A stretch of 64,000 nucleotides of DNA, taken from NCBI GenBank assembly GCA_019694755.1, contig JAIBBI010000004.1, positions 1-64,000 on the forward strand. The letters are read 5' to 3'. Each line of letters opens with the position of its first letter. Position 1 is the first letter of the stretch. Positions 3,522 through 30,876 of this stretch are shown here, in pieces. The notes under the pieces are model-generated. The model worked only from the letters and a program-made list of their open reading frames with translations. It did no database searches and was not told the DNA's origin. The DNA comes from Gemmataceae bacterium (GTDB lineage: Bacteria > Planctomycetota > Planctomycetia > Gemmatales > Gemmataceae). The position numbers were made by a program, and so were the translations under genes.

Positions 3522-3620
3522 CTGAGTTGCTCCCGGGGTTCTGGAGACGGATCGAATCATGAAACGGACCGGTCGGCCCGACGGAGAAACGACAAGTAAG
3601 TCGCCTCCCCACTGGCGCGC

Positions 3621-13401: not shown

Positions 13402-14886
13402 TCAAGCCGCCCTTTTCCGAACGACGAGGCCGCGCAACTCCTGTAACGTGGGTCGATCAAACGACAGTAGCCCGAGTATGCCGACGGCCAAGCCCACTGT
13501 CCCACAAACGGCGAGTCGCACCACTGCGGGAATGAACCGGCCAGGCTCAGCGTCCCAGGTCAGCAGGCCGCGCCGTGTCAGGTACATCGCCAGCCCCGAA
13601 CCGATCAAAACGAATACGAGTGGAGCAAGCCGGGAAAACAAAGCAGATGCCGGAATCCGGAGTCGACGCAAAGTGTATAGCAGGAACATCAATGTCACCG
13701 AAGCCTGAGCGATGGCCAGCGCGAGGCAGTAGTACAGATCACCGTACTGAAGATAAACCCACCCGGCCGGTGCGACGAGCAGTACCTGAAGAAGGCAGAA
13801 AGCCGCGGGAACGAGTGGTCGGCCCTCAATCATTGCTGCCGACGTGCTCAACCGCATGAAGCCGACAAACCACAGCCCGAGCGAAAGGACCGTCATGAGC
13901 CGCGCCGAAGGCAACCAGGCCGGCCCCATCGCCGCGATCACGAGATCGGCACCAATCGACGGCAACACTACGGCACCCGCGCCGCCTACGGCGATGAAGA
14001 TAGCCGCGCCGCGGACGAACAGGCTGGCGAATCGCTCACGGTCATTCTGGGCGTTGCAGAGCAGGGGATAGACGACTTTGTCTACTGCCAGAGTGAGGTT
14101 GAATCCGAAGAGACTGCACACGTTGACCGCGCGCCCCAACACACCGACGGCAGCGGCCCGCTGCTCCTTGCCGACCACGCCGGGCGCGTCGACATAGCCG
14201 ACGAGCAGAAAGTACAAGTTCCATTGAAGCGTGTTGAGGTACTCGAAGACGGCGTTGCGCCAACCAAAGTTGAACAGTTGCTTCAACACATGGCCGCCCC
14301 AACTTCGCGGCCAACGCACTCCCGTATGCCGGCAAACGAGAAAAACCGCTGCCGTCTGGGCGGCGAGGGGAGGAATTGCCAGAGCGAAGTACCCGGCCCC
14401 CGCAGCCGCCAGGCCGATTGCCGCCGATGCCGTCAGGATGATGGTCAGCGCCTCGGCGCCAGCCATGCGGGCGAATCGCATGTCACGGGCCAGCACGGCC
14501 GACTGCAGTCCGTAAAGCCCGGTGGCGATAAAGAACGCGGCATTGCACAGCCCGACAAAGAACAACTGCGGGTCGTCGTAATAGCCCCAGCAGTACAGAC
14601 CACTCAACGAAGCAACGACTGCGTATGTGCTGTAAACGACGAGTGTCACGGACCCGGCCGCATCGAGTTGGTCTTCGAGACTGAGATCCTGCCGGCTGGT
14701 GAGGAATCGGTAGACACCGAAATCGCCGAAGGCACTGACCATCCCGGCCAACGAGACAACCATCTGGTATCGGCCATAATCTTCTTTCGTCAGCAAGCGG
14801 GCGAGGACGATGCCGCTGAAAATCCTCGCCCCCTGTGCGACTGCGGAGCCGCCGACGAACAGCGCTCGGTCCGAGATGCGGAACAT
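13402..14886 (-). CDS. Wzx-type polysaccharide flippase
   Basis: 494 aa. The ATG at 14886 shares a base with the TGA of the upstream GT2 gene (TGATG), which decides the start against the longer frame to 15006. About 12-14 hydrophobic segments are visible, and the N-terminus SAVAQGARIFSGIVLARLLTKEDYGRYQMV is typical of the MATE/MVF polysaccharide transporter group (RfbX/Wzx). It should flip the undecaprenyl-linked repeat unit to the periplasmic side, where the Wzy-like protein would polymerise it. Confidence 0.88.
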   Translation of the reverse strand: MFRISDRALFVGGSAVAQGARIFSGIVLARLLTKEDYGRYQMVVSLAGMVSAFGDFGVYRFLTSRQDLSLEDQLDAAGSVTLVVYSTYAVVASLSGLYCWGYYDDPQLFFVGLCNAAFFIATGLYGLQSAVLARDMRFARMAGAEALTIILTASAAIGLAAAGAGYFALAIPPLAAQTAAVFLVCRHTGVRWPRSWGGHVLKQLFNFGWRNAVFEYLNTLQWNLYFLLVGYVDAPGVVGKEQRAAAVGVLGRAVNVCSLFGFNLTLAVDKVVYPLLCNAQNDRERFASLFVRGAAIFIAVGGAGAVVLPSIGADLVIAAMGPAWLPSARLMTVLSLGLWFVGFMRLSTSAAMIEGRPLVPAAFCLLQVLLVAPAGWVYLQYGDLYYCLALAIAQASVTLMFLLYTLRRLRIPASALFSRLAPLVFVLIGSGLAMYLTRRGLLTWDAEPGRFIPAVVRLAVCGTVGLAVGILGLLSFDRPTLQELRGLVVRKRAA

Positions 14887-15875
14887 CAGCGCGGGTGCCT
14901 CGAGACTTTTCGGAGTGCTGCGCGCAACAGCGGCAGGGGGCACGAGCGGGCACAGGCGTAAAGCAGCCCGGCCGCGAACCTCGCCCGCCGGCATTGCCGA
15001 TAGCACGAGCGCACGTTTACGTGCGTCAACTCGGCGAACGGGTTACCGGCCCTGGAAAGGCACCGACCCGTCCGCTCCAGATAAACTGCCGTCGGAATCA
15101 TCTGCATGAGGTAAGAATACGTACGCCAGCGCAAATCGCGACATCGCGGGTCGCCCAGGGTGAAATCCGATTGCAAGCGGGCCATGTCTATCGCCGCCAG
15201 CAGGGGCTGTTCGCCGGTGTCGGGCGGTAAGGTCACGTTCACCAGTCGGCCCGGCAGGAAGATCGCCGGCCGGTCACGGAGTAGTTTCAGCGCGACCATC
15301 GTATGCGGATACCGCGTCCGCGCAACGTCCGCCGGCCAATCTGTAAGCGCGGCTTCGCGATGAAACATCAGGTTCGAGACGAACGACGCATGGAAAATGC
15401 CGAGCGTCGAGAGAAGTGAGTCCGGCCCGTCGATCGTCGTCTCCACTGTCGGCCTGATGATACCTCGGCGAACCGCATCCGCCCCGGGCAGAGTGTCGAA
15501 CATGACCAGTGGGGAATCCACGTTGATTCGCGCGGCCCCAAGTAGCAACCAGTCGAGGGCGTCCGGACGGAGCGTGTCATCGTCGGCGAGGATCACGAAA
15601 CTCTCGCCGGTCGCCATCCGGGCGACGGCCTCGAAATTACCGGCGAAGCCGAGGTTGGTGGTTTGTCGTGCGTGGATCATCCGCACGGACGCAAATTGGC
15701 CTTGGGCCTGCTCAATGACGTGAGCCGTGTCATCGGGTGAGCCATTGTCGCTGATGCAGACTTCGAATCGATCGGCTTGCGGGTGTCGGACGACGGCTGC
15801 GAGCAGCGCGGGAAGCATCCCGGAGAGCTTCTCGGCCCGATTGTAGGTCGGCACGCACAGGCTGATCGTGGTCAT
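14886..15875 (-). CDS. Family 2 glycosyltransferase
   Basis: 329 aa, ATG start overlapping the transketolase C-half stop by 4 nt. GT-A fold: ISLCVPTYNRAEKL at the N-terminus, VCISDNGSPDDT, and VILADDDTL as the DxD-type motif near residue 98. The RfbF-like arrangement of the N-terminal domain resembles abequosyl- and dideoxyhexosyl-transferases, but that is only general similarity. It sits directly between the sugar-nucleotide genes and the flippase, which makes it a candidate for transferring the special deoxysugar made by the upstream genes. Confidence 0.85.
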   Translation of the reverse strand: MTTISLCVPTYNRAEKLSGMLPALLAAVVRHPQADRFEVCISDNGSPDDTAHVIEQAQGQFASVRMIHARQTTNLGFAGNFEAVARMATGESFVILADDDTLRPDALDWLLLGAARINVDSPLVMFDTLPGADAVRRGIIRPTVETTIDGPDSLLSTLGIFHASFVSNLMFHREAALTDWPADVARTRYPHTMVALKLLRDRPAIFLPGRLVNVTLPPDTGEQPLLAAIDMARLQSDFTLGDPRCRDLRWRTYSYLMQMIPTAVYLERTGRCLSRAGNPFAELTHVNVRSCYRQCRRARFAAGLLYACARSCPLPLLRAALRKVSRHPR

Positions 15876-16768
15876 CGCCCGGTCGCCGCCCGCACAATGC
15901 CTTCAAGATTGACTCCGTGCAACCCACTGAGATAGGCAGGCGAACCGGCAACTTCGACCGGCTCGCGACCGAAGCGGACGGGCCGCAGCTCGATTCCGTG
16001 TGGTACTAGTGCCAGCGTTTCGGCAATGATAGTGCCCAGCCCACCGCCCGCATGATCTTCGATGGAGACGATCCGTCCTGCCGAGCGAGCCGCGTCGAGA
16101 ATCGCCGTCGGGTCGAGAGGCTCCAGTGTGGGTACGCTGAACAGGGTTGCGTCCAGTTGCTCCGCCGCCCGAAGCGAAAGTGCAAGCGTCGCTCCTGTGC
16201 AGGCCAGCACCGCACCAGGCCCCGAGCGCAACAGAATTGGCTGGCCCACCTGCCAGTTCGGACCGATGCCACCGTGGACGGCAGGCTCATCGCCGCGGCC
16301 CAGGCGAAGGTAGCCGGGACCCGATCGCTTGGCCAGTTCCGCAGTCGCCCAAGCCGTCTCGTATTCATCGCCAGGCGCAAACACCGAGATGTTGGGCAGG
16401 AGTCTGACGATTCCGATGTCCTCGACGGCATGGTGGCTGTAGCCGTGGCCGCCGTAAGAGAGTCCGCCACCGACGGCGACGATCGTGACATCGAGCCGGT
16501 GATAGGCGACATCGTTCCGCAGTTGTTCCAAGCAGCGCAACGTGGGGAAGTTGGCAAGCGAATAGACGAAGACCTTGCGCCCGGCCAGCGCGAGCCCTGC
16601 CGCGACGCCGAGCATGTTCTGCTCAGCCACGCCAGCATTGACAAACCGGTCTGGGAACTTCATCTGGAACGGTTCGAGAACGGAATAGCCCACATCGCCG
16701 GTGAGGAGCCAGATTCGCGGATCCCGTTCGGCGGCAGCGAACAGTGTGGAGGCAAACGCTGCCCTCAT
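15872..16768 (-). CDS. Split transketolase, C-terminal subunit
   Basis: 298 aa, close to the usual length of the C-terminal half of split transketolases. It holds the pyrimidine-binding domain: NAGVAEQNMLGVAAGLAL with the conserved glutamate E49, which activates thiamine diphosphate, then GGGLSYGGHGYSHHAVEDIGIVRLLPNI and a C-terminal transketolase-type domain. It must pair with the N-terminal half encoded immediately upstream (4-nt overlap). Within an rfbFGH operon it may transfer a two-carbon unit to a sugar nucleotide instead of serving the pentose phosphate pathway. That role is inference. Confidence 0.88.
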   Translation of the reverse strand: MRAAFASTLFAAAERDPRIWLLTGDVGYSVLEPFQMKFPDRFVNAGVAEQNMLGVAAGLALAGRKVFVYSLANFPTLRCLEQLRNDVAYHRLDVTIVAVGGGLSYGGHGYSHHAVEDIGIVRLLPNISVFAPGDEYETAWATAELAKRSGPGYLRLGRGDEPAVHGGIGPNWQVGQPILLRSGPGAVLACTGATLALSLRAAEQLDATLFSVPTLEPLDPTAILDAARSAGRIVSIEDHAGGGLGTIIAETLALVPHGIELRPVRFGREPVEVAGSPAYLSGLHGVNLEGIVRAATGR

Positions 16769-17568
16769 GGCCCGCCCTCCAATTCCGCCAGTGCGGTCTT
16801 CAACATTGCGGCGTCCGGCGAGCGGTAATGCCAGGCGAGCGAGTCCTCCATGAACGACACGCCTTTACCCTTCACGGTCTTCGCAAGCAGAATCGAAGGC
16901 CGACCGGCTGAGAACGGAAGGGTATTCAAAGCCGCGATCAGGGCCGGGGTGTCGTGTCCATCGACCTGCCGGACCGCCCAGCCGAAAGCCGTCCACTTGT
17001 CCGCTAGTGGTTCCAAATTGAGCACATCGCTGGTTCGGCCAAAGCTCTGCCAACCGTTGACGTCGACAATTGCCAACAACGATTCCAATCGATGGTGCCC
17101 TGCAAACATCGCCGCCTCCCAGACGGATCCTTCATTCAGCTCACCATCGGAAAGCAGGACTATGGCCCGAGACGGGGAGCCAGTCTGTCGGGCAGCGAGA
17201 GCAAGACCGCAACCCACGGACAGCCCGTGCCCCAGCGAGCCCGTCGAAAGTTCAACTCCCGGTACGAGATGACTCGCATGGCCGAGCAGACGTGAGCCGT
17301 CAGAGAGGTACTGGTCCAATTCGGCAATCGGAATGTACCCGCACTCGGCGAGCGTCGCATACAGGGCCGCCGCCGCGTGACCCTTTGAGAGGATGAAACG
17401 GTCGCGATCGGCCTCGTCTGGCGAGCCGCGGAGCCAGTCGCCGAACACCACCGCCAGAATGTCGGCCACCGACATGCACCCGCCGACGTGCGAAGCTCTC
17501 GCCATTGACACCATCCGCAGGACATGCCTGCGAATCCGTCGGGCCAGTTGCGGAACATCGACACTCAT
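16765..17568 (-). CDS. Split transketolase, N-terminal subunit
   Basis: 267 aa. It holds the diphosphate-binding domain: FILSKGHAAAALYATLAECGYIP, GSLGHGLSVGCGLALAAR and the thiamine diphosphate/metal signature SDGELNEGSVWEA (residues 140-152) followed by DVNGWQ. The first residue of the usual GDG is Ser here (S140-D141-G142), while the metal-binding Asp and the downstream Asn are kept. It overlaps the next gene by 4 nt, consistent with equal production of both halves of the enzyme. Confidence 0.88.
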   Translation of the reverse strand: MSVDVPQLARRIRRHVLRMVSMARASHVGGCMSVADILAVVFGDWLRGSPDEADRDRFILSKGHAAAALYATLAECGYIPIAELDQYLSDGSRLLGHASHLVPGVELSTGSLGHGLSVGCGLALAARQTGSPSRAIVLLSDGELNEGSVWEAAMFAGHHRLESLLAIVDVNGWQSFGRTSDVLNLEPLADKWTAFGWAVRQVDGHDTPALIAALNTLPFSAGRPSILLAKTVKGKGVSFMEDSLAWHYRSPDAAMLKTALAELEGGP

Positions 17569-18461
17569 CGAATTCGTGGCTGCCAGGTAAGAGCAATTTG
17601 AATGGCTGAATCGAGGTCGACCGTCGCTCGGAGCCCCAATTCTTGCCCGGCTCGCGTCGTGGCCGGCACATATCGCTCAGCAGGCGAGTTGTCGGCGATG
17701 GCACAAGATACCCCCGCGATCCGTGCGATTCGCGACGCCAGTTCCGCAAGCGAAACAGCTTCCTCGCTTCCCACGTTGTACACCCGACCGGGCGCGCCGG
17801 ATTCAAGAATCGTCGTCAGCCAGCGCACGAGATCGACATGATCGAGGTACGAACGAATCGCACCGCCACGCTCGACGCGGACCGGTTGATGGCGTCGGGC
17901 GGCCGCGAGAAACTGCCCGGCGGCAAGCGGGCCATCGGCTGACATGTCCGGGCCTATTACCGCAAATACTCGCGCAATCACAGTCGGGACCGGTGACAAG
18001 CCCACCAACTGCTCGGCCCGTCGTCGCGATCGAGCGTACTGGGCCCGCGTTTCAGACGATTCGTCGCTGGTGCGATCATCTTCCGTGATCGGACCGTCGT
18101 GTGGTCCCGCGACCGCTCCGGAGCTGACGAGCAAAGCACGAGCGATTCCCGCCTTCTCGGCTTGCCGCCAGGTGTTTTCGACTCCGCGCACATACTCCTC
18201 GGCTTTCGCTGCATTGAATGTCGCCGAGGCAGGATCGCCTGCCAGGTGTATCAACGAGTGGTATTGACGGTCGATGCGAAAATCAGCCGCTGTGCCATCG
18301 AGGTAACTCACGCTTGCCGGGTCGATCCATCGGGAGATCCGGGTCCGAGCCCGGGCGGGGTCGCGGGTCAGTACGGCGATATCACGCAAGTCCCTTCCGA
18401 GGGCGATCAGCCATCGGCCGATCATGCCGCTTCCGCCCGTGATCAGCACGGGGCCCATCAT
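17565..18461 (-). CDS. NAD(P)-dependent SDR epimerase/reductase of the deoxysugar pathway, with Y-x3-R
   Basis: 298 aa, extended short-chain dehydrogenase. N-terminal [14 protein letters not shown] is the Rossmann glycine motif, [10 protein letters not shown] carries the catalytic serine, and Y142 is the catalytic tyrosine. The fourth residue after it is R146 (YARSR), where the family normally has Lys. The C-terminal [14 protein letters not shown] and [17 protein letters not shown] blocks are typical of sugar-nucleotide SDRs. Directly after rfbH it is placed like CDP-paratose/abequose synthases or the YerF-type reductase, so it is likely to reduce the 4-keto group of a CDP-dideoxyhexose. Substrate and stereochemistry are not predictable. 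Confidence 0.78.
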
Positions 18462-19768
18462 TGTTGCCGGACCAGATCGTGCAGCGATTCGACAATGTAG
18501 TCACGCATTGCCGGTGTCAGCCCCGGGTAGACGCCCACCCAGAAAACGTTGTTCATTGCGAAGTCGGTGTTCGTCATCGGGCCGATCATTCGGAAAGGCA
18601 CGTCGGCGTATGCGGGCTGGCGGGTCAGGTTTCCGGCAAACAAAAGCCGGGTCGCGATCTTTCTCTTTTCAAGGAACCGCACAGCTTCATTGCGTGTGAA
18701 CGGTGCGGTCTGGCGGACCGCCAGCGGATAGCCGAACCAGCTTGGCTCGCTTTCGGGTGTCGCCTGCGGGCGGATGAAATACTCGTCAAGGTCCGCCAGT
18801 CCCGCATGCAGTGCGGAAAAGTTGGCCCGGCGAGCAGAGATAAAGTTCGGTAGCTTCCGCATCTGGGCGACGCCGATTGCCGCCTGCGGGTCGGTCATCT
18901 TCAGGTTGTATCCGCGGTGGGTGTAAGTGTATTTGTGGTCGTAGCCGGCCGGGAGCGAACCCAGTTGTTGCTCGAACCGCTTGCCGCAGGTATTGTCCCG
19001 GCCCGGCTCACACCAGCAATCCCGGCCCCAGTCTCGAAATGATTCGAGCAACTTCGCCAAGGCGGGTCGATCTGTCAGCACCGCGCCGCCCTCGCCGGTC
19101 GTAATGTGGTGTGCCGGGTAAAAGCTCACGGTGGCCAGGTCGCCGAACCTGCCTACGTGCTCGCCGCGATAAGTCGAACCGAGTGCATCGCAGCAGTCCT
19201 CGATCAGCCAGAGATCGTGCTTTCGGCAAAAGTAGGACACGGCAGACAGGTTGAACGGATTACCCAGCGTATGCGCGAGGACGATCGCCTTCGTCCGCGG
19301 CGATAGAGCCTTTTCGAGTTGGGCTGCGTCGACGTTGTATGTCGGGATCGAGATATCGAGAAAAACTGGAATGAGTCCGTTCTGCACGATCGGGTTGACC
19401 GTCGTGGGGAACCCGGCTGCGACCGTTATTACTTCGTCGCCCGGTCGAAGGCGACGATCACCGAGGGTGGGCGAAGTCAGCGCGGAAACGGCCAGCAGAT
19501 TGGCCGAAGAGCCGGAATTGCATAGCTTGGCCGACCGCAACTCGAACCAGCGCTCAAGTTCCTGTTCGAATTCGCGGGCATGAGTCCCAGCCGTCAGCCA
19601 GAATTCCAGGGACGCGTCGACCGCAGCCACCAATTCTTCGTCGTCGAAAACTCGCCCGGCATAAGCAACGGGCGACTCGCCCGGCTTGAAAGGCCCCGGG
19701 GTCGGCCGGGCCGCGTGATAGTCGCGGACCAGGTCGAGAATCTCGTTGCGGAGTCGGTCGGCTGTCAT
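18458..19768 (-). CDS. rfbH: CDP-4-dehydro-6-deoxyglucose 3-dehydratase (E1)
   Basis: 436 aa, DegT/DnrJ/EryC1 fold. Unlike the aminotransferases, the PLP lysine is replaced by His in [16 protein letters not shown] (H220/H221), the hallmark of the PMP-dependent 3-dehydratases RfbH, AscC and ColD. The [2Fe-2S] cysteine pattern of E1 (C-x57-C-x1-C-x7-C) is exactly present: C193, C251, C253 and C261. Together with an E3-type reductase it removes the 3-OH of CDP-4-keto-6-deoxyglucose. No E3 ferredoxin reductase (RfbI/AscD) is in the window and would have to be supplied from elsewhere. It overlaps both neighbours by 4 nt. Confidence 0.95.
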
Positions 19769-20751
19769 GCCAGGTACTCCGCGATGGTCCGAGCCGGATC
19801 GCCCTCAGTGACGGCTCGTCGCACGGCGTCGGCCGAGGTAAACCTGGGCTTCCAACCCAGTCGGACTCGCACCTTGCTGGAATCGAGGCGCAGGATTTTG
19901 GTTTCGGTCACACCCTTGGGATCGGCGACGTGTTCCCAACTCCCACGCCCCTGGCTCTGAATTACAAGTTCGGCCACCTCGTGAACGGCCAATGCGGGGC
20001 GGGGCGGGGGCCCGAAATTGAACGCTTCCGAGAACCCGGCCGGGTCGCGGAGCTGAGCGTCTATGAGTAGGCGGTATCCGTGAATGACATCGATGACATG
20101 CTGCCAGGGTCGAATGGCATCGGGATGCCGCAGAGGAATTGGCCGGCCGCGGCGAATGGCCCGCAGGCAATCGGGGATAAGCCGGTCTTCGCCCGAGTCA
20201 CCCCAGCCGACGACATTGCCGGCCCGCGCGGTGGCTACACTGACATCGCGAAAATAGGTATTGCGATAGGCCTCGACCGCGTGCTCGGCAGCTGCCTTGC
20301 TGGCCGAGTAGGGGTCAGCCCCTCCGAGGGGATGGTCTTCATTCATCGGCCGGCTGACACCAGAATTGGCATAGCATTTGTCCGACGTGACTACCAGGAC
20401 GGCCCGAATGCTCGGTGTCCGCCGGGCTGCTTCCAGGACGTTGACGGTGCCCTGCACATTCGTCTGCCAGGTTCGCACGGGATGTCGCGCTGCACGCCGG
20501 ACGATTGACTCGGCCGCCAGGTGAACCACGACATCGGGCTTCGTTGCTTTCATTGCGGCAGCCACGCCGGACAAATCGCAGATGTCACCTTGGCGATCGT
20601 AACTGGCCCGACGAAGTGAACGCGTCGAAGAAACAAAGAACGGTCGCGTGTCGATACTGTAGCCGTGGGTCTCGATCCCAAGGTGGGCGAGATAGAGCGT
20701 CAGCCAGGTGCCCTTGAATCCGGTGTGCCCGGTGACGAACCAGCGGTTCAT
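19765..20751 (-). CDS. rfbG: CDP-glucose 4,6-dehydratase
   Basis: 328 aa. The ATG at 20751 overlaps the TGA of rfbF, with GGAAGG 7 nt upstream. A GTG at 20766 is in frame but less likely. Extended [17 protein letters not shown] is the NAD-binding motif in the form typical of Rfb[11 protein letters not shown] carries the active-site Thr/Asp region, and [10 protein letters not shown] is the Y-x3-K pair. It converts CDP-glucose to CDP-4-keto-6-deoxyglucose, the substrate of RfbH encoded next. Confidence 0.93.
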
Positions 20752-21521
20752 GGCCACACCTTCCACGGGGCCGCTCCGGACGACCAGAGGTCGTTGAGCG
20801 CGAGGTATTCGCGGTAGGTGTCCATGGCCTGAAAGTAGCCGTCGTGGCGAAATGCTACCAGTTGTTTGTCAGCGGCGAGGCGTTCAAGCGGTTCTTTCTC
20901 AAGCACGCACGAATCGCCGGCCAGATAGTCGAGGACCGCCGGCTCAAAAACGAAGTATCCGCCCGACGCCCAGCCGTCGAGCGTGGGCTTCTCTGCAAAC
21001 GTGCGCACCCGACCATCGGTTTCGAGGTCGAGTACGCCGAACCGGGAAGGCAATCGAACCGCACAAACGGTCGCGATTTTGCCATGGCTCCGGTGAAAGC
21101 GGACCAGCGTGCGGATGTCCAGATCGCTGACCCCGTCGCCATAAGTTACGCAGAAGGAGTCGCCATCGAGGTATCGCGCGGCCCGCGCGATCCGGCCGCC
21201 CGTCATCGTGCTTTCCCCTGTCTCGGCCAGAGTAACGGTAAACGGTGTCGGCTCTTCGCCGTGAAACTGGATGCTCGAGGGTGTGCCCGGCCGGATTGTG
21301 AAATCGCGTGTGAGGGCCTGATAATTGAGGAAATACTCGCGGATCATCCTGCCACGATGACCCAGCGTCAGCACGAATTCGCTGAGCCCGTGATGGCAGT
21401 AATGTTGCATGATGTGCCAGAGGATCGGTCGGCCACCGATCTCGACGAGTGGCTTTGGACGGTACTCCGTCTCCTCCCGCAACCGGGTACCGAGTCCGCC
21501 GCACAAGATGACAACTTTCAT
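20748..21521 (-). CDS. rfbF: Glucose-1-phosphate cytidylyltransferase
   Basis: 257 aa, matching the usual 256-260 aa. The ATG at 21521 overlaps the upstream stop codon; the frame extends to 21578 but the added residues are not RfbF-like. The nucleotidyltransferase signature MKVVILCGGLGTRLREETEYRPKPLVEIG opens the protein, followed by GRPILWHIM, FCVTYGDGVSD (metal-binding Asp) and GGYFVFEPAVLDYL. It makes CDP-glucose from CTP and glucose 1-phosphate. pgm (57490-59127) and pyrG (55731-57368) elsewhere in the window could feed it with both substrates. Confidence 0.94.
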   Translation of the reverse strand: MKVVILCGGLGTRLREETEYRPKPLVEIGGRPILWHIMQHYCHHGLSEFVLTLGHRGRMIREYFLNYQALTRDFTIRPGTPSSIQFHGEEPTPFTVTLAETGESTMTGGRIARAARYLDGDSFCVTYGDGVSDLDIRTLVRFHRSHGKIATVCAVRLPSRFGVLDLETDGRVRTFAEKPTLDGWASGGYFVFEPAVLDYLAGDSCVLEKEPLERLAADKQLVAFRHDGYFQAMDTYREYLALNDLWSSGAAPWKVWP

Positions 21522-22777
21522 GGCATCACCGGGGCCGGTGCCCGGGCGGGCAGAAGTGCCCGCAGTTCGGCGTCCCACGCGTCGATCATTCGCTCGCGTG
21601 CAAAGTAGCTTTGATATACCGCCTGGCAGTGCGACTGCATTTCTTTGAGTCGAGCCGGATTCTCGGCGAGGGCCTTCAATTCCTGAGCAACTTCATTAAC
21701 CGATTTGGAATTCAATAGCCAGCCGACGCGGTGCTCCTTGACCCAGCGAGCGATACCACATTCGGCCGAACCTGAAAATACGACTGGCCGGCCGATCGCC
21801 AGCGACCCAAAGAATTTGGAGGGTACTACCGTGCCGGTCCAGGACGGCTGAAGACTGACGAGGTGGACATCTGCCGCACCCAGTCGTTGCTCCAACTCGT
21901 CGGCCGACGCGAATCCGGCGAATCGGACGTTAGTGTCGTCGGGAGTGACGGCGGCCCGCAACTGTTCGGTACGGTTGCCCCGGCCGGCGAAACAGAACGA
22001 CGCGGTCGAACCGCGCATCGCCCGTGCCAGCGCGAGCAAGTCTTCGTGAGAATGTGCGCGGCCAAATGTGCCGGAATAAAGAAGTCCGAGCGACGCATCC
22101 CCGAACAGACCAGCGCGTATGGCAGGGTCGGCCGTCACCGGGCCGGCTGGCTCGACGAGAGCCCATGGCGTGATGGTCTCAGTTCGGGCCGGGCTGCCGT
22201 ACCTGCGGATCAGATCGCGCATGCACGGGCCGATGTCGACAATGAGATGACACGCTCTGTACGCCCGACGAAGGAAGAAACGGAGGAAGCGGACGGGCAG
22301 GGCAGAGTCGCTGGTCATTCCGTCTGCAATCGCGGCTTCCGGGTAAATGTCGAAGGCCCAGTGAACGACCCGCGTGCCGGTCAAACGCCAAGGCACGGCC
22401 GCACACACACTGAGAACCGGGTCAGTTCCAATCACAACGATGTCGGGTCGCCGACGGCCGGGGACGAGCGATTGCAGGCCCCAAGCGGTGATCATCCAGG
22501 CGGCATTGGCGAGCCGGCCGAAGTTGCGGGCCTGATCCCAGTTCGGCCGCCAGACCCGCCGGACGGCGACGCCGTTCCAGTCCTCCCGGCGAGGGTAAGT
22601 ACGAGAACCTTCGGGAAAATCGCGATTGGCAGGACAGGCTGTCACGTCCCACCCGCGTTCGGCCAGGCCCGCGGCCAGATCGGCAAACTGTCGGGCGCTC
22701 ACGTTATCGCTGGGATGGAAAACGTGGTAATACAGCCGGACTCGTGGTCGGCGTGTGACGGAATGGGAAGCGTGCAC
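21518..22777 (-). CDS. Family 4 glycosyltransferase (WbuB-like), first gene of the EPS operon
   Basis: About 419 aa from a GTG at 22777. The open frame reaches 22906, but a TTGACA-17-TACAAA promoter lies inside that extension (22859-22887), so translation must start further down; the exact codon is uncertain. Features: YYHVFHPSDNVSARQFADLAAGLAERGWDV, a hallmark of WbuB/WcaI-type enzymes, FDIYPEAAIADG, and the donor domain LLYSGTFGRAHSHEDLLALARA with VPSKFFGSLAIGRPVVFSG. In this family the donor-site block reads PSKxxxxLA instead of the classical E-x7-E. It leads the 12-gene operon; the sugar transferred is unknown. Confidence 0.85.
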   Translation of the reverse strand: MHASHSVTRRPRVRLYYHVFHPSDNVSARQFADLAAGLAERGWDVTACPANRDFPEGSRTYPRREDWNGVAVRRVWRPNWDQARNFGRLANAAWMITAWGLQSLVPGRRRPDIVVIGTDPVLSVCAAVPWRLTGTRVVHWAFDIYPEAAIADGMTSDSALPVRFLRFFLRRAYRACHLIVDIGPCMRDLIRRYGSPARTETITPWALVEPAGPVTADPAIRAGLFGDASLGLLYSGTFGRAHSHEDLLALARAMRGSTASFCFAGRGNRTEQLRAAVTPDDTNVRFAGFASADELEQRLGAADVHLVSLQPSWTGTVVPSKFFGSLAIGRPVVFSGSAECGIARWVKEHRVGWLLNSKSVNEVAQELKALAENPARLKEMQSHCQAVYQSYFARERMIDAWDAELRALLPARAPAPVMP

Positions 22778-22858
22778 CAAATCCGGAACTCGTGCCGGGT
22801 ACCGCGCCCGGTAGATTGGCCGGGGGAGACTGTCGCCCGTGCCGATGTCGCAACTCCA

Positions 22859-22887
22859 TTTGTAAAGCCGGCTTCCGACCGTGTCAA
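22859..22887 (-). promoter_or_regulatory. Promoter of the 12-gene polysaccharide operon
   Basis: The minus strand has a perfect TTGACA (22882-22887), a 17-bp spacer and TACAAA (22859-22864). A start near 22852 gives a leader of about 75 nt before the GTG at 22777. It lies inside the longest open frame of the first glycosyltransferase and so helps place that gene's start. Confidence 0.6.
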
Positions 22888-22937
22888 TCGGCCCGACGGG
22901 GTCCATCGGGCGGATCCCGGAACCCGGGTTCGATCAC

Positions 22938-23029: not shown

Positions 23030-23083
23030 GTGAAGCTGCCCCATGCTGTTCCCCTACCGCGCCACCAACTGGTTCTTCGCACC

Positions 23084-24979
23084 ATGAGTACAGCCGTCGT
23101 GGAGCCCCCGACACACGCCGCGACCAAGTCCGTCTCGCGCGGATTGGTGATCGGAATTGGATTGGTGCTGTTGGCCGCCCATGTCCCGCTGCTGTTTGCC
23201 CACTTTCGCGGGCTCTGGCTGAAGCCGCACTATCAACTGTTCCCGATCGTGCTGGTCGGCGCGTTCCTTCTGCTCTGGCCGACGGCCAGTATGGCTCCGG
23301 CCAAGGCCGGTGTGCTGTTCCCTGCAATTGCCCTTCTGGGTGCGGGGGCGGGGCTGATAGGACTGGGTGCGTTGGCGGAAGCCGGCGAGTGGACCGTACT
23401 CGGTGCTGCTCCTAACTGGATCGCAGCCGGCGGCATCGTGATGTTCGCCTCCATTCCGCTCGTGATATTCCTGGGCACGGCCGCGCCATACCTGCCGAAC
23501 GCGCAGCCGGCCAAGGGACGCACGTGGGTGATTATCGATATCGTGCTTTTCGCCGGCGTCGTATTCTTCGGCTCGTTGCCCGGTGCTGCGTTCTCCGTTC
23601 TCGTGTTGATTGCGGCACTGGCGTACACACTCGGTGGAACTTCGCTTCTTCGAAGGTGCTTGCCCGCTCTGGCGTTTCTCCTGCTCGTTGTCGGTCCGCC
23701 GCTCAGCCTCGATACGAAACTTGTGCAGAAGCTCCAGGAACTCGCGGCCGGAGTGTCCAGCAAACTGCTCGACCAGATGGGGGTGTACCACATCCTCAAT
23801 GGCGTCGTGATTCAAGTCGGAGAAAAGAAGTATGAAGTGGAAGGAGCGTGCAGCGGTATCAGTTCTTTGCTCAGTACACTTGCGTGCGTCTTGTTTTACG
23901 TGCTCTACTTCCGGATCCACTGGTTCCGGGCCACGCTCCTGACGCTTTCGGCGATGCTTTGGGTGATGGTCAACAACATCCTTCGGATCATCGGAATCAC
24001 GGCGGCGGGGACGTGGTGGAAGATCGACCTGGCCAATGGTCTGCCGCACCAACTTTTCGGGATTCTGCTATTCGCGCTGACACTCGTGCTGTTGTGGAGT
24101 ACGGATCGACTTCTGATGTTCTTCGGTCGGTCCGACGAGCCACGGCGAAGGTTCGAGCCCGCGACGATCGCACCTTCTGAACCCGCGGTAGAATCCGCGT
24201 TCGGGGTAACTGGCGCGTTTTACAGATCGTTGGCGGTAGCCGGCGTCTTTGCAGCATTTACAGGGATTCAAGGCGCGGAGATTGCCGCGATCGCCAGTCA
24301 GGCACCTTATTCAGGTTCGGCATTATCGGGGCTTTACAAGAAGGTCACCGTCGACACTCTGCCGGAACGATTGGGCCGATGGACCCGACCCGCGAAGTTG
24401 GAGGAATTCGCCAGGCCGACGGGAAGCCCGCTTGGCGAGTTTTCGCAGACATGGCGGTATGGACTGGATCGAACGCAGACCAACCTGAAGTCGGAGATCT
24501 TCATCTCTTTCGATTACCCTTATCCCGAGTTTCACGACATCCGCGTCTGTTACCGCAACATCGGCTGGTATGACACCAAGACCGAGTTGTTCAAGGCTGC
24601 CACGGGCGACAATCGGCCGGATCTGGAGTGTGTCCGGGTCAAACTTTACAAGCCCTATGAACAGTATGGCAATCTGTGGTTCTGCCAGTTCGATCAGGAC
24701 GGATTGCCGATCGAGCCCACAGACATGTTTCCCAAGCCGCTCATGGAGAAGTTCACCGACCGTATCGTTCACGGTGCGACCCGTTGGCAGCGATTGCTGA
24801 GTCCGGGTCGGGCGGAAAAACTCGCGAGCGGCTCCGGTTCGATCGTCCAGGTGCAAATGCTATTCGAGACCAAACACGAACTTCCCGAAACCGAGAGTGC
24901 GAAATTCGAGGCAATGTTTGTGGAAGCGGCAAAGAGGCTCCGGGCCCGGGCCGCCGACCTCAAGTTGAAGCCCCAGTAA
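23084..24979 (+). CDS. Exosortase fused to an EpsI-like domain (exosortase A of this locus)
   Basis: 631 aa from the ATG at 23084; a GTG at 23030 in frame overlaps the likely -10 and is rejected. About eight to ten membrane segments fill residues 20-345. The exosortase catalytic triad is present: C256 (VEGACSGISSLLS), R301 (NNILRIIGI) and H322 (GLPHQLFG). After a last membrane segment near residue 350 comes a polar domain that should lie outside the cytoplasmic membrane, with the EpsI-like block EFHDIRVCYRNIGW. Exosortases cut C-terminal sorting signals and attach proteins to envelope material, usually in organisms with EPS loci. It is followed after 21 bp by a TPR gene. Confidence 0.85.
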   Translation: MSTAVVEPPTHAATKSVSRGLVIGIGLVLLAAHVPLLFAHFRGLWLKPHYQLFPIVLVGAFLLLWPTASMAPAKAGVLFPAIALLGAGAGLIGLGALAEAGEWTVLGAAPNWIAAGGIVMFASIPLVIFLGTAAPYLPNAQPAKGRTWVIIDIVLFAGVVFFGSLPGAAFSVLVLIAALAYTLGGTSLLRRCLPALAFLLLVVGPPLSLDTKLVQKLQELAAGVSSKLLDQMGVYHILNGVVIQVGEKKYEVEGACSGISSLLSTLACVLFYVLYFRIHWFRATLLTLSAMLWVMVNNILRIIGITAAGTWWKIDLANGLPHQLFGILLFALTLVLLWSTDRLLMFFGRSDEPRRRFEPATIAPSEPAVESAFGVTGAFYRSLAVAGVFAAFTGIQGAEIAAIASQAPYSGSALSGLYKKVTVDTLPERLGRWTRPAKLEEFARPTGSPLGEFSQTWRYGLDRTQTNLKSEIFISFDYPYPEFHDIRVCYRNIGWYDTKTELFKAATGDNRPDLECVRVKLYKPYEQYGNLWFCQFDQDGLPIEPTDMFPKPLMEKFTDRIVHGATRWQRLLSPGRAEKLASGSGSIVQVQMLFETKHELPETESAKFEAMFVEAAKRLRARAADLKLKPQ

Positions 24980-25000
24980 CAGCCAGCCGGAAGCAACACC

Positions 25001-26746
25001 ATGGGATTCATGCCACGACTGCCCCGCCATTGGCACGAGCGCCTCGATCGCTGGCGCGATTCGATTGTGTACTGGTGCGTGTACCCGATTCAGGCCGTCA
25101 TTTCGGGATTCTCCTGGACGGGCCATGCTCTGGTCCATGCGTGGGGCACGCGCAGCTTCCGGATGTTCCTTAAGGGCATACCTGCGCTGCTCGGATTGGT
25201 GGCCGTATGCGTGGGGGGGGCTTTCGCCTTTGCCGGGCGGTCGCAGGAACGCCGGTCCAATCTCGCCATGGACTACATGAACGAGGCGGCGATCTCGCTG
25301 CGCAAGGCCAACGCCGCAAAAGAGAACGATGTCGATACCCGCCGTGCGCGGCTTTCAGAGGCTCGCACTTATGTCGAAAAAGCGATTCGCCTGACGGAAG
25401 GGACCCGCGAAGACTTCACGTTCAGTCTTGCAAACGTGCTTGCGGAGTCGGGTGAATTCGAGCATTGCCGTGCGATTATGGAAAAGCTCGCTCCTGAAGA
25501 GTCGAACGGGTTCGGCCCTGCCCACCTGTGGCGAGGCGACCTCTTGATGCGCGAAATGAGGGCCGATACTCCCGACGTGGAAAAGGCTATCGAACGTCAT
25601 TACGTTCGCGGGTACGAGTCCGCCAAACTGAAGCCGGAGAGTCCCGAGTACCTCCAAGCCGTACTTCGGCTGGGGAATCTATACGCACGGACAGGGCGGA
25701 TCAACGACGCCATCAAGTACATCGAGAAGGTTGAAGAGGCTTTCCCCCAGCAGCGTATGCTCCTGGCCGAGCTTTACAATCGGGCGGGTCGAAAGGACGA
25801 TGCCAGGCGCACATTGGTTTCCATCGAACGATATTTCAAAGCCAAAACCGAGGAACAGGTCGACGACAAGGCCGCACGGTTTCAGTGGGTCGGTTCGCTC
25901 GTCCAGCAGGAAAAGTATGACGAAGCAATTGCGGTGCTCAAGAAAGGTTCCGTACTCTCGACGGACGTCCGCTTTCCGGCTGCCTGTGCCGAGGTCTATG
26001 GGCAGTGGGAGGCGTGGATGTCCCGCCAGCCCGGCAATAATCTCGCAGCGCAAATTGCGCTTATTCAGGCCGGGCTTCAATGCATGCCTTCGAGCAACTA
26101 CCTCCTGACCCGTCTGCTGGAGCTCTCCAACCTGAAAGGGGCCGAAGCAGCCAAAGCCAAGGAGACGCTTCAGAATATGCTGGCTGACGGAAACTCCGCC
26201 CCGATTATTCATCATCTGCTCGCCATGCGGGCATATTCCGAGGGGCGTACAGACGAGGCCAAGTTTCACTGGGAAAAATCACTGACGGTCGATTCGCAGG
26301 TCACGCCCGTCGTCATGAACAACTTAGCTTGGATTTACTGTCATCAGGCGAAACCGGATTATGATCGGGGTCTGGTCATGATAGATCAGGTCATTGCCAA
26401 GTACGGCGGCCAGCCGGCGTTTTACGGAACCCGTGGCGAAATCCTCGCCAAGAAAAAACAATACAAGGAGGCGCTCCCCGACCTCGAAAAAGGCATCAAG
26501 GCGATGCCGATGAGCCTCGAGTTGCACGCCTCACTAGCCGAGTGTTACGAACATCTCGGTATCAAGAGCATGGCGGAAGTACACAGCAAAAGAGCGGATG
26601 AGCTGAGAAAGAAAATGCCGAATCGACCGGGCACTCCGACCGCGCCCGCAGAACCTCCCAAACTCGATGACGGTCTGAAGACGAAGGCCGACGAGAAGCC
26701 CAAAGTGGAAGAAAAGCCCAAGTCGGACGACAAGCCGAAAGGCTGA
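25001..26746 (+). CDS. Membrane-anchored TPR protein (exosortase-associated)
   Basis: 581 aa, ATG start 21 bp after the exosortase gene, so almost certainly co-transcribed. A cytoplasmic segment with Arg/Trp-rich helices (1-55) precedes one membrane helix at about residues 58-79. TPR-like helix pairs fill about residues 80-520 (for example AIKYIEKVEEAFPQQRMLLAELYNRAG and the final block around ALPDLEKGIKAMPMSLELHASLAECYEHLG). The tail (about 535-581) is Pro/Lys-rich and disordered with PK repeats. In proteobacterial PEP-CTERM loci a TPR protein (PrsT) also accompanies the exosortase, which supports a scaffold role in polysaccharide or sorting assembly. No catalytic motif was seen. Confidence 0.82.
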   Translation: MGFMPRLPRHWHERLDRWRDSIVYWCVYPIQAVISGFSWTGHALVHAWGTRSFRMFLKGIPALLGLVAVCVGGAFAFAGRSQERRSNLAMDYMNEAAISLRKANAAKENDVDTRRARLSEARTYVEKAIRLTEGTREDFTFSLANVLAESGEFEHCRAIMEKLAPEESNGFGPAHLWRGDLLMREMRADTPDVEKAIERHYVRGYESAKLKPESPEYLQAVLRLGNLYARTGRINDAIKYIEKVEEAFPQQRMLLAELYNRAGRKDDARRTLVSIERYFKAKTEEQVDDKAARFQWVGSLVQQEKYDEAIAVLKKGSVLSTDVRFPAACAEVYGQWEAWMSRQPGNNLAAQIALIQAGLQCMPSSNYLLTRLLELSNLKGAEAAKAKETLQNMLADGNSAPIIHHLLAMRAYSEGRTDEAKFHWEKSLTVDSQVTPVVMNNLAWIYCHQAKPDYDRGLVMIDQVIAKYGGQPAFYGTRGEILAKKKQYKEALPDLEKGIKAMPMSLELHASLAECYEHLGIKSMAEVHSKRADELRKKMPNRPGTPTAPAEPPKLDDGLKTKADEKPKVEEKPKSDDKPKG

Positions 26747-26758
26747 GTCCAGTCCCCG

Positions 26759-28411
26759 CTACCGGCCCGCATCGATTCCAGTAGGACGGGCCCACGGGCA
26801 AAGCTGATACAATTCGCCGGCAAACTGCTGTGTGAAACCGCGCAGCAGTTTTTCTCCCGCTCCCACCGAGCCTCGCGTAGTCGTACCGATCAAAACGGAG
26901 ATCCGGGCGCCGGAATCCACCGGCCGATGGCCGTATTGAAACAGCTCAAACAGCCACGAGTGGCCCGAGAACATCTCCGCCTTTTCGACGCCGTCTGGCA
27001 AAACAAAGGAGCCATTCTGCGTCCAGAAGAACAGGGCTTGCTGCATCTCGGGCTTGGCGTAGTGGCGCATGGACACTGGAAGTTCTCCGCCACCGATTAG
27101 CTGGATCGGCTGAACTTGGGACGTCGTCACTTTCCAACCACGGAATGGATAGCAGATGTCCGGATGGTGCATGTGCGCGGTGGTTGCCGCGTTACCCCAG
27201 AACATCACCCAGACGTTGACTTCCTCGCCGACGGCGTTGCGGTAGCTGCGATTGACGATCTGATCGCAGAGCAACTCCTCGGCAATGGCCTCGTTGACGG
27301 GCAGGTCCGTTCCGCGCCATGGCCCGATCGTCCGAGACAGTTCCTCCAATCGTACCGTCACCCGGTGGCTTATGCGGAACTGTTCGGCCCACATGCAGGC
27401 AACGAGGGCAGGCGTGAGAACCGCGAGCGCTAACCCGGCACGCGCAAGTGCGGAGTTGCCCGATTGTCGCAGACTGCCGACCGTCTGAATGGGCTCGCAC
27501 GCCACCGGTCGCGGCGACAGGAGAGTCGCCAGCGCAACAATCAGCCCGAGTCCAACGAGGATGACGCCGATCCCGAGGGCTTCATGGGCCCACCCTTCGA
27601 TAGCCGCCCTGCCAAAATGTTCCTGTATCAGCCCGGTGAGGATCACGCGCAGTGCGTTCGTCACGGCAATAACCCCCACTGTCAGACCCACGAGCAGCCC
27701 ACCCCGAAATAGCCCGAATCCGCGTAGGTAAGCAACGAGCACCGCTATGGCGGTCAGTGCGGTGACCGAGCGTACGCCGCTACACGCTTCGACAACACCC
27801 AGTGACCCCGACGGGAGCGTAAGTTCGAATCCGGCCGGGTCGGGCCGTTCGCATGGCACACCCAGCCAAGGCAGAGCGATGTGAGCTGACGACGTCGTGA
27901 ACTGCTTGAGCCGGAGCATGAGCGGGTTGTAAACGCGGCCGGGCGTTGGAAGCGAAAACACTACGAAAAGCACTGGAAACACAAGAAGTCGGGCATGACT
28001 GAACCCGAGGTGGAGGAGTGCGAGTCCCAGAACGAGCAACATGAGTGACGCGGTCAGCCACCAGACCACAATCGGCCTACCGCTGACTTGTACGGCGACA
28101 AACCACCCGACGGCAAACGCGGCGGCGCCAGCGGCGAGCGGCAGCAGGCCCCACGTTTGAGGCCGTGGGCTCATGGAGAGCAATCGCGGGACTGCCCGCC
28201 ATATCAGCCAGGCCGATGCGAGCGGTATCAGAAACCTGTCTGCCAGATCGGGCTTCGAAGACCAGACCGGAATGAGCGTGATAACCCAACCGGCCACGGC
28301 AGCCACCGTAACCGCCCAACTCGCCAGGAACCACCCGTCGGCCGAGCGGTCTCCACATGATGGTGACGCCCGGGAGGAATGGGCCGGGCCAATCGGCAAA
28401 GTCGTCGCCAT
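26759..28411 (-). CDS. Exosortase fused to an EpsI domain (exosortase B of this locus)
   Basis: 550 aa, ATG start. About ten membrane segments cover residues 25-345. Catalytic residues: C210 (VEACSGVRSVTAL), R255 (TNALRVILTG) and H276 (GWAHEALG). A polar EpsI domain follows from about residue 350 with NVWVMFWGN and the classic HMHHPDICYPFRGWKV block. It is distinct in sequence from the plus-strand exosortase, so these are two different paralogues, not a recent duplication. It converges on the first TPR gene (12-bp gap) and diverges from the second (89-bp gap). Confidence 0.9.
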   Translation of the reverse strand: MATTLPIGPAHSSRASPSCGDRSADGWFLASWAVTVAAVAGWVITLIPVWSSKPDLADRFLIPLASAWLIWRAVPRLLSMSPRPQTWGLLPLAAGAAAFAVGWFVAVQVSGRPIVVWWLTASLMLLVLGLALLHLGFSHARLLVFPVLFVVFSLPTPGRVYNPLMLRLKQFTTSSAHIALPWLGVPCERPDPAGFELTLPSGSLGVVEACSGVRSVTALTAIAVLVAYLRGFGLFRGGLLVGLTVGVIAVTNALRVILTGLIQEHFGRAAIEGWAHEALGIGVILVGLGLIVALATLLSPRPVACEPIQTVGSLRQSGNSALARAGLALAVLTPALVACMWAEQFRISHRVTVRLEELSRTIGPWRGTDLPVNEAIAEELLCDQIVNRSYRNAVGEEVNVWVMFWGNAATTAHMHHPDICYPFRGWKVTTSQVQPIQLIGGGELPVSMRHYAKPEMQQALFFWTQNGSFVLPDGVEKAEMFSGHSWLFELFQYGHRPVDSGARISVLIGTTTRGSVGAGEKLLRGFTQQFAGELYQLCPWARPTGIDAGR

Positions 28412-28500
28412 GGAGTCGCCCCGTCGGCAGACGCGGCTACCCGCGTGCGGTAAACTCTATCTATGTTGCCGCATCGGCCGATGACCGACAAGTGAAACCC

Positions 28501-30822
28501 ATGTTCCGCCGAATCCTCCACACACTCGCGGCCGTTTTTTTCGGCATCAGGCACGGTCTGCACGAGATCGGCATTTTCATGGCGGACATGGTCCGCGTGC
28601 TCGATCCACGGCAGCTTCCGGGCATGCTCGTCGGCGGCAGCAAGGAGGCGATTGAGGGTGGCAAGGTCGTGGCGGCGACCACCACCGTGACTCTCGCCGA
28701 GGTACTTTGGCGAATCGTCCGGTCTCCAATTGACCTCGCCCGCCTGCTGTTTACCGCGCCCGGGCGGATCTGGCATTCGCTGCGTACTCAGAGGCCTATC
28801 TACCTACTCATCGGATTGATTGTGTTTCTTGTGTTTGTCGGTGGCGCAGTCTGGCCGGTTATGAACATCTTCCGGGAACGGCGGGTCGATGCCATGCGAC
28901 GTGAACAATACCGACAACTCGACGAGCACTTCATCCGTGGCGACTACGAAGGCGTGAAGCACAATCTCGAAACCCTGGTGAAGTCCGCCCCCGAAGATTC
29001 CAAAGTCGCGACCCGCCTCGCCGCGCTCGAAGCAGGAGTCGCGGTGCCCTCCGACGCCAAGATGGCCCGACTCCTGATGCGGCGGCACCTGTTTCAAGGC
29101 AAGCTGCCCGATTCAGCACGCGAGGCCCGGAAGGTCGTTGCCCTCGAAGACAACGATTGGGAAGCGCTGATTATGGTCGCCCAGGAACGGATATTGGCAG
29201 GCGACCGAGCAGAAGCAGTCGCCGCAGTCGAGAAGCTGCCGCTGCCCGAGAATTCCATCGAGGCGATCCCCTATTACGCGGCGTCGATCGGAGAGCGGAT
29301 CTTTCGAGAGCTGGGACGTGAAGATCGGCTCGATGACCTCATCAAATTTGTTGCCGAGAAGTATGTGCCAGCCGTGCGGCACAGCATCATCAACGCCTAT
29401 GAGCCTTCAACCCGACTGCAATTGGCCTTGATGTACCGCATGGCCTTGAGTCAGTTAGCCCGACGGCCGCAACTCGCCGAGTATTTCGCCAACTATCAGG
29501 ACTTGTGCCACGGCATTGCAAACGCGCCGAACGTTAATGCCCCGATCCTCGCATCGGTCGGCGAGATTCAGGAAGCCATGCGGTATCCCGCACTGCAACA
29601 GATGAGGCAGATGAACCTTATCACGGCCGAGCAGCACGATGAGTTTTCGAAGGAAATCGAAGGTCGGTTGGCAATCGTCTGGTCGCGTGTCCGGGAAATG
29701 GATGCGAAAAACTACCTCGGTTACGTCGGGCCGGCCATGCAACACGTCCGGGCCGGTCGATTCAGCGACGGATTGCGCGAGATTGAGTCCGGCATTGGCG
29801 CATGCGGACCCCTTCCGCCGCTACTCGAGAAGAAGGCCGACATCATGCGAATGATGGACCCGGTCGGCGGACTCGCCTTTCTGGAGAAGTCGATCGCGCC
29901 CGACGAAAAAAACCCGGCCATGTACAAAGTGCTGGCCGAGGCAGCGTTGGCTGCCCAACGGCCAGACAAGGCCATGGAAGCCATTCGCAAGGCTCGGGCC
30001 CTTGCCCCGGAATTGCCGTGGGCGATACGACTGGAGGCGGAAGTGTTGTTGCAGATGGGCAGACCGACCGAAGCGGCCGCAGGCCTGAAATCTGTCCTCG
30101 CCTCGATCGGGCTCGACGGCCCGGCATCCGTGCTCTACGTCCGCGCTTTAGTTGGAGCCGGGAGCCCGCAACTGGCAGAGCAGTTTCTGGTGAATGCAGT
30201 CAATGGCAAGGAATCGCTGGGACCGATTCTGTTGGGTATTGAGGAACTCCTGCGCCTTGGACGAGCGGTCGGAGCAGAAACGTGCAGCCGGCGAGTATTA
30301 CTCGAAGACCCGGGTAACTACGTCGCCCAGATTCTGCTCGGCGATGCATGCCGGATCCAGGCCGAGCAGGCGACTGGCGGATGGGACAAAGGTCTCGCCG
30401 AGGACGCGATGAAGGCCTACCGAGGGGCACTCCGCCGCGATCCCGATCTGCCAGTCGTCCTGGCTCAAGTCGCCTGGCTCCAACTGGCGGCATTTGACCT
30501 GGCGCAGGAAGCTGATATCACAATGAATCCACTGCGCGAGCGGGTCGATGTTCTACCTCCGGTCGCGGTTCAGATGCTTGGAATCGCCGACGTGGTGTCC
30601 GGGCGGTACGAGGCCGGCCGGATCAAGCTCCAGAGGGTGCTCGATCGCCAAGGCCCCGAGGCGCTGACCTTGGCGTATCTCGCATTGGCCTACCACGGGA
30701 TGAATCAATCCGGTGCTGCCGACGATTGCCTGAATCGTGCCTTGGCGGCCCCGAAATCGAGCCCACGTCGGGCCGAACTTGTAGAGAAGATTCGACTCAA
30801 GATCGCTCGTGGAATCAAATAG
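28501..30822 (+). CDS. Large membrane-anchored TPR protein
   Basis: 773 aa. The ATG at 28501 is chosen because the longer frame (from 28357) would overlap the start of the divergent exosortase gene and leave no promoter space. N-terminal part: an amphipathic/hydrophobic region (1-95) and a clear membrane helix at about residues 100-122, followed by RERRVDAMRREQYRQLDEHF. TPR-like helix pairs extend to the C-terminus (KNPAMYKVLAEAALAAQRPDKAMEAIRKARALAP; LPWAIRLEAEVLLQMGRPTEAAAGLKSVLA; ALTLAYLALAYHGMNQSGAADDCLNRALA). The layout matches the other TPR protein of this locus, but without the Pro/Lys tail. It is probably a scaffold or substrate-handling partner of the exosortases. Confidence 0.82.
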   Translation: MFRRILHTLAAVFFGIRHGLHEIGIFMADMVRVLDPRQLPGMLVGGSKEAIEGGKVVAATTTVTLAEVLWRIVRSPIDLARLLFTAPGRIWHSLRTQRPIYLLIGLIVFLVFVGGAVWPVMNIFRERRVDAMRREQYRQLDEHFIRGDYEGVKHNLETLVKSAPEDSKVATRLAALEAGVAVPSDAKMARLLMRRHLFQGKLPDSAREARKVVALEDNDWEALIMVAQERILAGDRAEAVAAVEKLPLPENSIEAIPYYAASIGERIFRELGREDRLDDLIKFVAEKYVPAVRHSIINAYEPSTRLQLALMYRMALSQLARRPQLAEYFANYQDLCHGIANAPNVNAPILASVGEIQEAMRYPALQQMRQMNLITAEQHDEFSKEIEGRLAIVWSRVREMDAKNYLGYVGPAMQHVRAGRFSDGLREIESGIGACGPLPPLLEKKADIMRMMDPVGGLAFLEKSIAPDEKNPAMYKVLAEAALAAQRPDKAMEAIRKARALAPELPWAIRLEAEVLLQMGRPTEAAAGLKSVLASIGLDGPASVLYVRALVGAGSPQLAEQFLVNAVNGKESLGPILLGIEELLRLGRAVGAETCSRRVLLEDPGNYVAQILLGDACRIQAEQATGGWDKGLAEDAMKAYRGALRRDPDLPVVLAQVAWLQLAAFDLAQEADITMNPLRERVDVLPPVAVQMLGIADVVSGRYEAGRIKLQRVLDRQGPEALTLAYLALAYHGMNQSGAADDCLNRALAAPKSSPRRAELVEKIRLKIARGIK

Positions 30823-30876
30823 CCCCGCCAGTCAATTCGCCATTCGACATCGCCGACGGAGTTGCGCAGGATCATC

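Follow-up and report, generated by a model that had tools for sequence, protein, structure and literature searches.

Two exosortases of different type, each with its own TPR partners, beside a polysaccharide locus in a Gemmataceae bacterium

The window analyzed here, a stretch of 64,000 nt at the start of contig JAIBBI010000004.1 from a Gemmataceae bacterium, carries a block of four genes in the strand order +,+,-,+: exosortase A, TPR1, exosortase B and TPR2. Gene calls bear out this order and these strands, which an earlier note had read from the DNA, as well as its claim of a single locus, next to polysaccharide genes, that holds two different sorting enzymes. Exosortase A (23030..24979, +; alternative start at 23084) and exosortase B (26759..28411, -) both contain multiple hydrophobic helices, indicating a multi-pass membrane core by hydropathy. 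TPR1 (25001..26746, +) and TPR2 (28501..30822, +) each have one strong hydrophobic helix, at approximately residues 60-78 in TPR1, followed by TPR repeats (Pfam, hydropathy). Exosortase B is inverted relative to TPR2 and is separated from it by a divergent intergenic stretch of 89 bases (28412..28500), a probable promoter region shared by the two genes. The TPR2 start is probably the ATG at 28501 and not 28357, because the latter would overlap the divergent exosortase gene; this choice, which also sets the intergenic boundary, was made from the sequence and from the point where homologues begin aligning. An Rfam scan returned a single tRNA, outside the four-gene block, and nothing else, and no repeats able to explain the junction were seen. 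The polysaccharide genes (13402..22906, -) encode a flippase, transketolase halves, a sugar epimerase/dehydratase, a DegT aminotransferase, a nucleotidyltransferase and a glycosyltransferase (Pfam). The transketolase is split into two genes (15872-17568, -) within a sugar-nucleotide cluster (nucleotidyltransferase, dehydratase, DegT), and the split together with these neighbours suggests a branched or unusual sugar.

By its profile matches, exosortase A is XrtU, a type already named in NCBIfam. It scores 126.9 bits against the Pfam exosortase model (PF09721, cut-off 25.7) and 105 bits against the C-terminal XrtU_C model (NF033780, cut-off 40), and it falls under the cut-off of 42.8 for EpsI (TIGR02914), to which its similarity is remote at most. 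The Cys, Arg and His residues are invariant in 13/13 XrtU sequences; they are C256/R301/H322 when counted from the ATG at 23084, as the earlier note correctly gave them, and C274/R319/H340 when counted from the GTG at 23030. While exosortase A resembles XrtU in these residues and in an XrtU_C domain over the cut-off, it differs in forming a deep branch with the enzymes of G004 and G011, with a best identity of 37%. A search of one literature library found no published study of XrtU, and a PDB sequence search found a relative of neither exosortase.

Exosortase B, hereafter Xrt-EpsI, scores 141.9 bits against PF09721 and is fused to an EpsI/DUF3485 domain (TIGR02914, 55.7 bits; DUF3485, 73.2 bits), whereas its match to XrtU_C, at 14 bits, lies well below the cut-off. 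Its best-scoring models are XrtD (TIGR04152, 162.9 bits) and XrtW (NF038142, 156.7 bits), and it shares the architecture of these EpsH-EpsI fusions. However, scores of 157-163 bits are far from the curated full-length cut-offs of 400 and 425 bits, five relatives of the enzyme also fall under them, and its partners are TPR2 and TPR3. Xrt-EpsI is an EpsH-EpsI fusion of a different clade, below every typed cut-off tested. The earlier proposal that both exosortases carry an EpsI-like domain consequently stands for Xrt-EpsI and has to be qualified for XrtU, which has the separate XrtU_C. An hhalign comparison of these C-terminal domains gave only a weak alignment (E 5e-4, probability 30%), but they have in common an H-x4-C-[YW]-x3-G-[WF] motif. 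The residues previously given for exosortase B, C210/R255/H276, are exact, and the Cys/Arg/His triad is invariant in 12/12 EpsI-fusion sequences.

A tree of 54 exosortase cores separated XrtU, the EpsI fusions and the family's stand-alone exosortases into groups of their own, each with support of at least 97, the XrtU and Xrt-EpsI clades reaching 100/100 each; the two enzymes thus did not arise by a recent duplication. The earlier note had held that its proposal would fail if both enzymes fell in one characterized type, and this came half true, with exosortase A in the named XrtU and exosortase B in no typed family. The source genome has a third exosortase, a stand-alone enzyme encoded in a different polysaccharide locus, on contig C13, with a sugar-transferase gene and a gene labeled Wzz-like by sequence look only. 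Exosortases number from 0 to 5 per genome among the 95 family genomes, making three ordinary.

The pairing of each enzyme with TPR genes was followed across these 95 Gemmataceae genomes, whose named members include Fimbriiglobus and Limnoglobus. XrtU_C was found in 13 of the 95, and a TPR1 homologue adjoins XrtU in 12/12 family relatives. The EpsI fusion was found in 13 genomes (strong matches) and TPR2 in 12, nearly the same ones (Fisher p 1.7e-9). This is the phyletic comparison that the earlier note had called for; it had reasoned that homologues of the exosortases never occurring with the TPR genes would count against it, and strong co-occurrence, the opposite, was found. Most of the relatives examined carry TPR2, TPR3 and Xrt-EpsI in that order on a single strand of one contig, the exceptions being G023 and G019 with approximately 25 kb between TPR2 and Xrt-EpsI. 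The window has Xrt-EpsI in inverted orientation, and TPR3 of the source genome is on contig C268 (E 2.7e-130), which ruled out its loss; a related-locus search over the genome contigs with TPR2 as query gave no matches. The block is consequently not interleaved, as first described, and instead consists of two abutting separate modules, each tied to its own TPR genes in relatives: module U would comprise XrtU and TPR1, and module E would comprise Xrt-EpsI and TPR2, with TPR3 as a displaced third member.

Both modules occur together only in the source genome. This overlap of one genome, where 1.8 are expected (p 0.44), is no rarer than chance, and mutual exclusion of the modules was dropped as an idea. 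The same set of Glycos_transf_4, Wzz/kinase and CpsB/CapC genes adjoins the EpsI fusion in G034 and XrtU-TPR1 in G011; thus the modules seem to replace one another at one kind of locus, and either may be able to fill a given position within a polysaccharide operon.

The earlier note had seen no PEP-CTERM protein nearby, which is true of the whole 94-kb contig, and had proposed a substrate signal not yet described. The source genome, however, encodes 22 PEP-CTERM proteins (TIGR02595, E ≤ 0.05), their tails composed of VPEP, a membrane helix and RRR, as expected of a genome with PEP-CTERM sorting. There were matches in 0/14 control genomes, and within the family PEP-CTERM proteins tracked exosortases, occurring in 74 of 82 exosortase-bearing genomes vs. 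1 of 13 without an exosortase (p 2.7e-9). An undescribed signal is not needed to explain the enzymes, although tails were located by profile only and such a search would miss a tail type unlike PEP-CTERM.

Exosortase types are usually distinguished by tail signals. XrtU is the sole exosortase in 10 genomes, eight of which have PEP-CTERM matches, and the tails in XrtU-only genomes consist of VPEPGT and a longer membrane segment. Two proteins encoded near XrtU (L056:11521-12162 and L058:1-336) have a VPEPGT tail without the usual arginine cluster. A second, E-type tail, PVPEPATxLG...GGxxRRRxRK, stands at the end of long proteins in genomes that have module E, and the source genome has three open frames with this tail (422, 1656 and 1860 aa), one of them with PATR repeats. 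At E ≤ 1e-7, E-type tails are found mainly in module-E genomes (p 1.1e-4 without the profile-seeding genomes, for a profile seeded from module-E genomes and with genomes within a genus not being independent). G070, which has XrtU only, also has an E-type match (1.9e-8). For XrtU-type tails the best match in the source genome, 1.2e-7, was no better than those in genomes without XrtU. Additionally, two tails of the source genome, VPAPASLGLVGIAGLVAGRRRR and VPTPGAAALVGLGGLLAARRRR (L015 and L032, on contigs C135 and C78), are unlike its others and may be contamination. The secreted proteins at 39-3560 (-) and 30862-32418 (+) have in common a LEDR motif at the N-terminus and, at the C-terminus, a dockerin-like repeat (DFLAFRLAFL...DxLQFRLxFL), and a third protein (L226:1895-6934) has the same C-terminal ending; the repeat is possibly a second C-terminal surface signal, distinct from PEP-CTERM.

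EpsI fusions, two EpsH genes per genome, and PEP-CTERM proteins in Planctomycetes have already been reported (Haft 2006; PMC1569441). The present locus is like the PEP-CTERM/EpsH system with PrsT in placing an exosortase beside polysaccharide genes, in its TPR proteins and in having PEP-CTERM substrates in the genome (PMC1569441). Its TPR proteins differ from PrsT (TIGR02917): full-length scores of 76.4 bits for TPR1, 46.0 for TPR2 and 108.5 for TPR3 all fall under the cut-off of 312 bits, placing none of them in that family.

We favor, with a probability of approximately 0.6, a reading in which two independent PEP-CTERM sorting modules with different tail variants have been brought together beside a polysaccharide locus. 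The genes, their residues, the conserved pairings, the PEP-CTERM proteins and the co-occurrence of tails with modules can be read directly from the sequence; from these we infer cleavage, scaffolding, a division of substrates and delivery to the surface. By analogy with the known system (PMC1569441), both enzymes would process PEP-CTERM proteins as these are exported together with polysaccharide. The PEP-CTERM helix and basic tail would hold secreted proteins in the inner membrane, the exosortase would cut near the PEP motif via Cys/Arg/His, and the mature protein would be delivered along with polysaccharide to the matrix or the cell surface, with the TPR proteins acting as putative membrane-tethered scaffolds. 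Co-occurrence among related genomes suggests a division of labor between tails and modules, in which module E would serve long beta-repeat-type proteins ending in PVPEPATxLG...GGxxRRRxRK and XrtU would serve VPEPGT tails whose membrane segment is longer.

Alternatively, the modules could be redundant, either enzyme or the C13 exosortase processing any tail, with their adjacency reflecting accidental clustering in a polysaccharide island. Such redundancy would fit a family in which up to five exosortases per genome are ordinary and module overlap is at chance level, and a genome in which most tails are generic VPEP, assignable to neither enzyme. Third-codon-position base composition, which is similar across the two modules and the neighboring polysaccharide genes, is likewise consistent with it. 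However, the distribution of E-type tails follows that of module E in different genera, and each enzyme retains its own TPR partners, and we regard redundancy as unlikely, if far from negligible. Another possibility, raised by the earlier note, is that one of the enzymes recognizes a signal different from PEP-CTERM, and XrtU-only genomes bear on it. G070 and G068 encode 17 and 7 PEP-CTERM proteins, respectively, with no other exosortase, and G055 and G056 each have, downstream of TPR1 and near XrtU, a gene for a protein with a VPEPGT tail, though one lacking the usual basic cluster. A different signal is improbable in light of these genomes, despite the failure to detect PEP-CTERM in G057 (93% complete), where XrtU is present, the lack of a substrate encoded on the window's contig and the lack of clear XrtU-type tails in the source genome. 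Finally, the assembly comprises 335 contigs, and both modules occur together in no other of the family genomes, as might be seen if an assembly error had joined two loci. The window contains no N, only 12 bases lie between the reading frames of TPR1 and Xrt-EpsI, which converge, codon composition is similar and the block lies inside a 94-kb contig, all of which makes such an error very improbable. The arrangement exists as described. Enzymes of both kinds were known before, and what sets this locus apart is only that they are found together.

To return to the reading of two independent modules, a more specific form of it would have Xrt-EpsI, TPR2 and TPR3 constitute an unnamed exosortase type dedicated to a separate variant of the PEP-CTERM tail, carried by long surface proteins of beta-repeat type, so that this module and XrtU would run as two sorting lines in parallel at a single polysaccharide locus; we hold this tentatively, at somewhat less than even odds. 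The family includes genomes that have only XrtU, others that have the EpsI-fusion module and a single one that has both, as well as tail variants tracking the modules, and enzyme-substrate pairing is therefore testable by deletion and proteomics. In the wider phylum, XrtU_C was found at E ≤ 0.001 in 14 of 392 genomes, eight of them over the cut-off, and two or three copies were present in G401, G368, G181 and G314.
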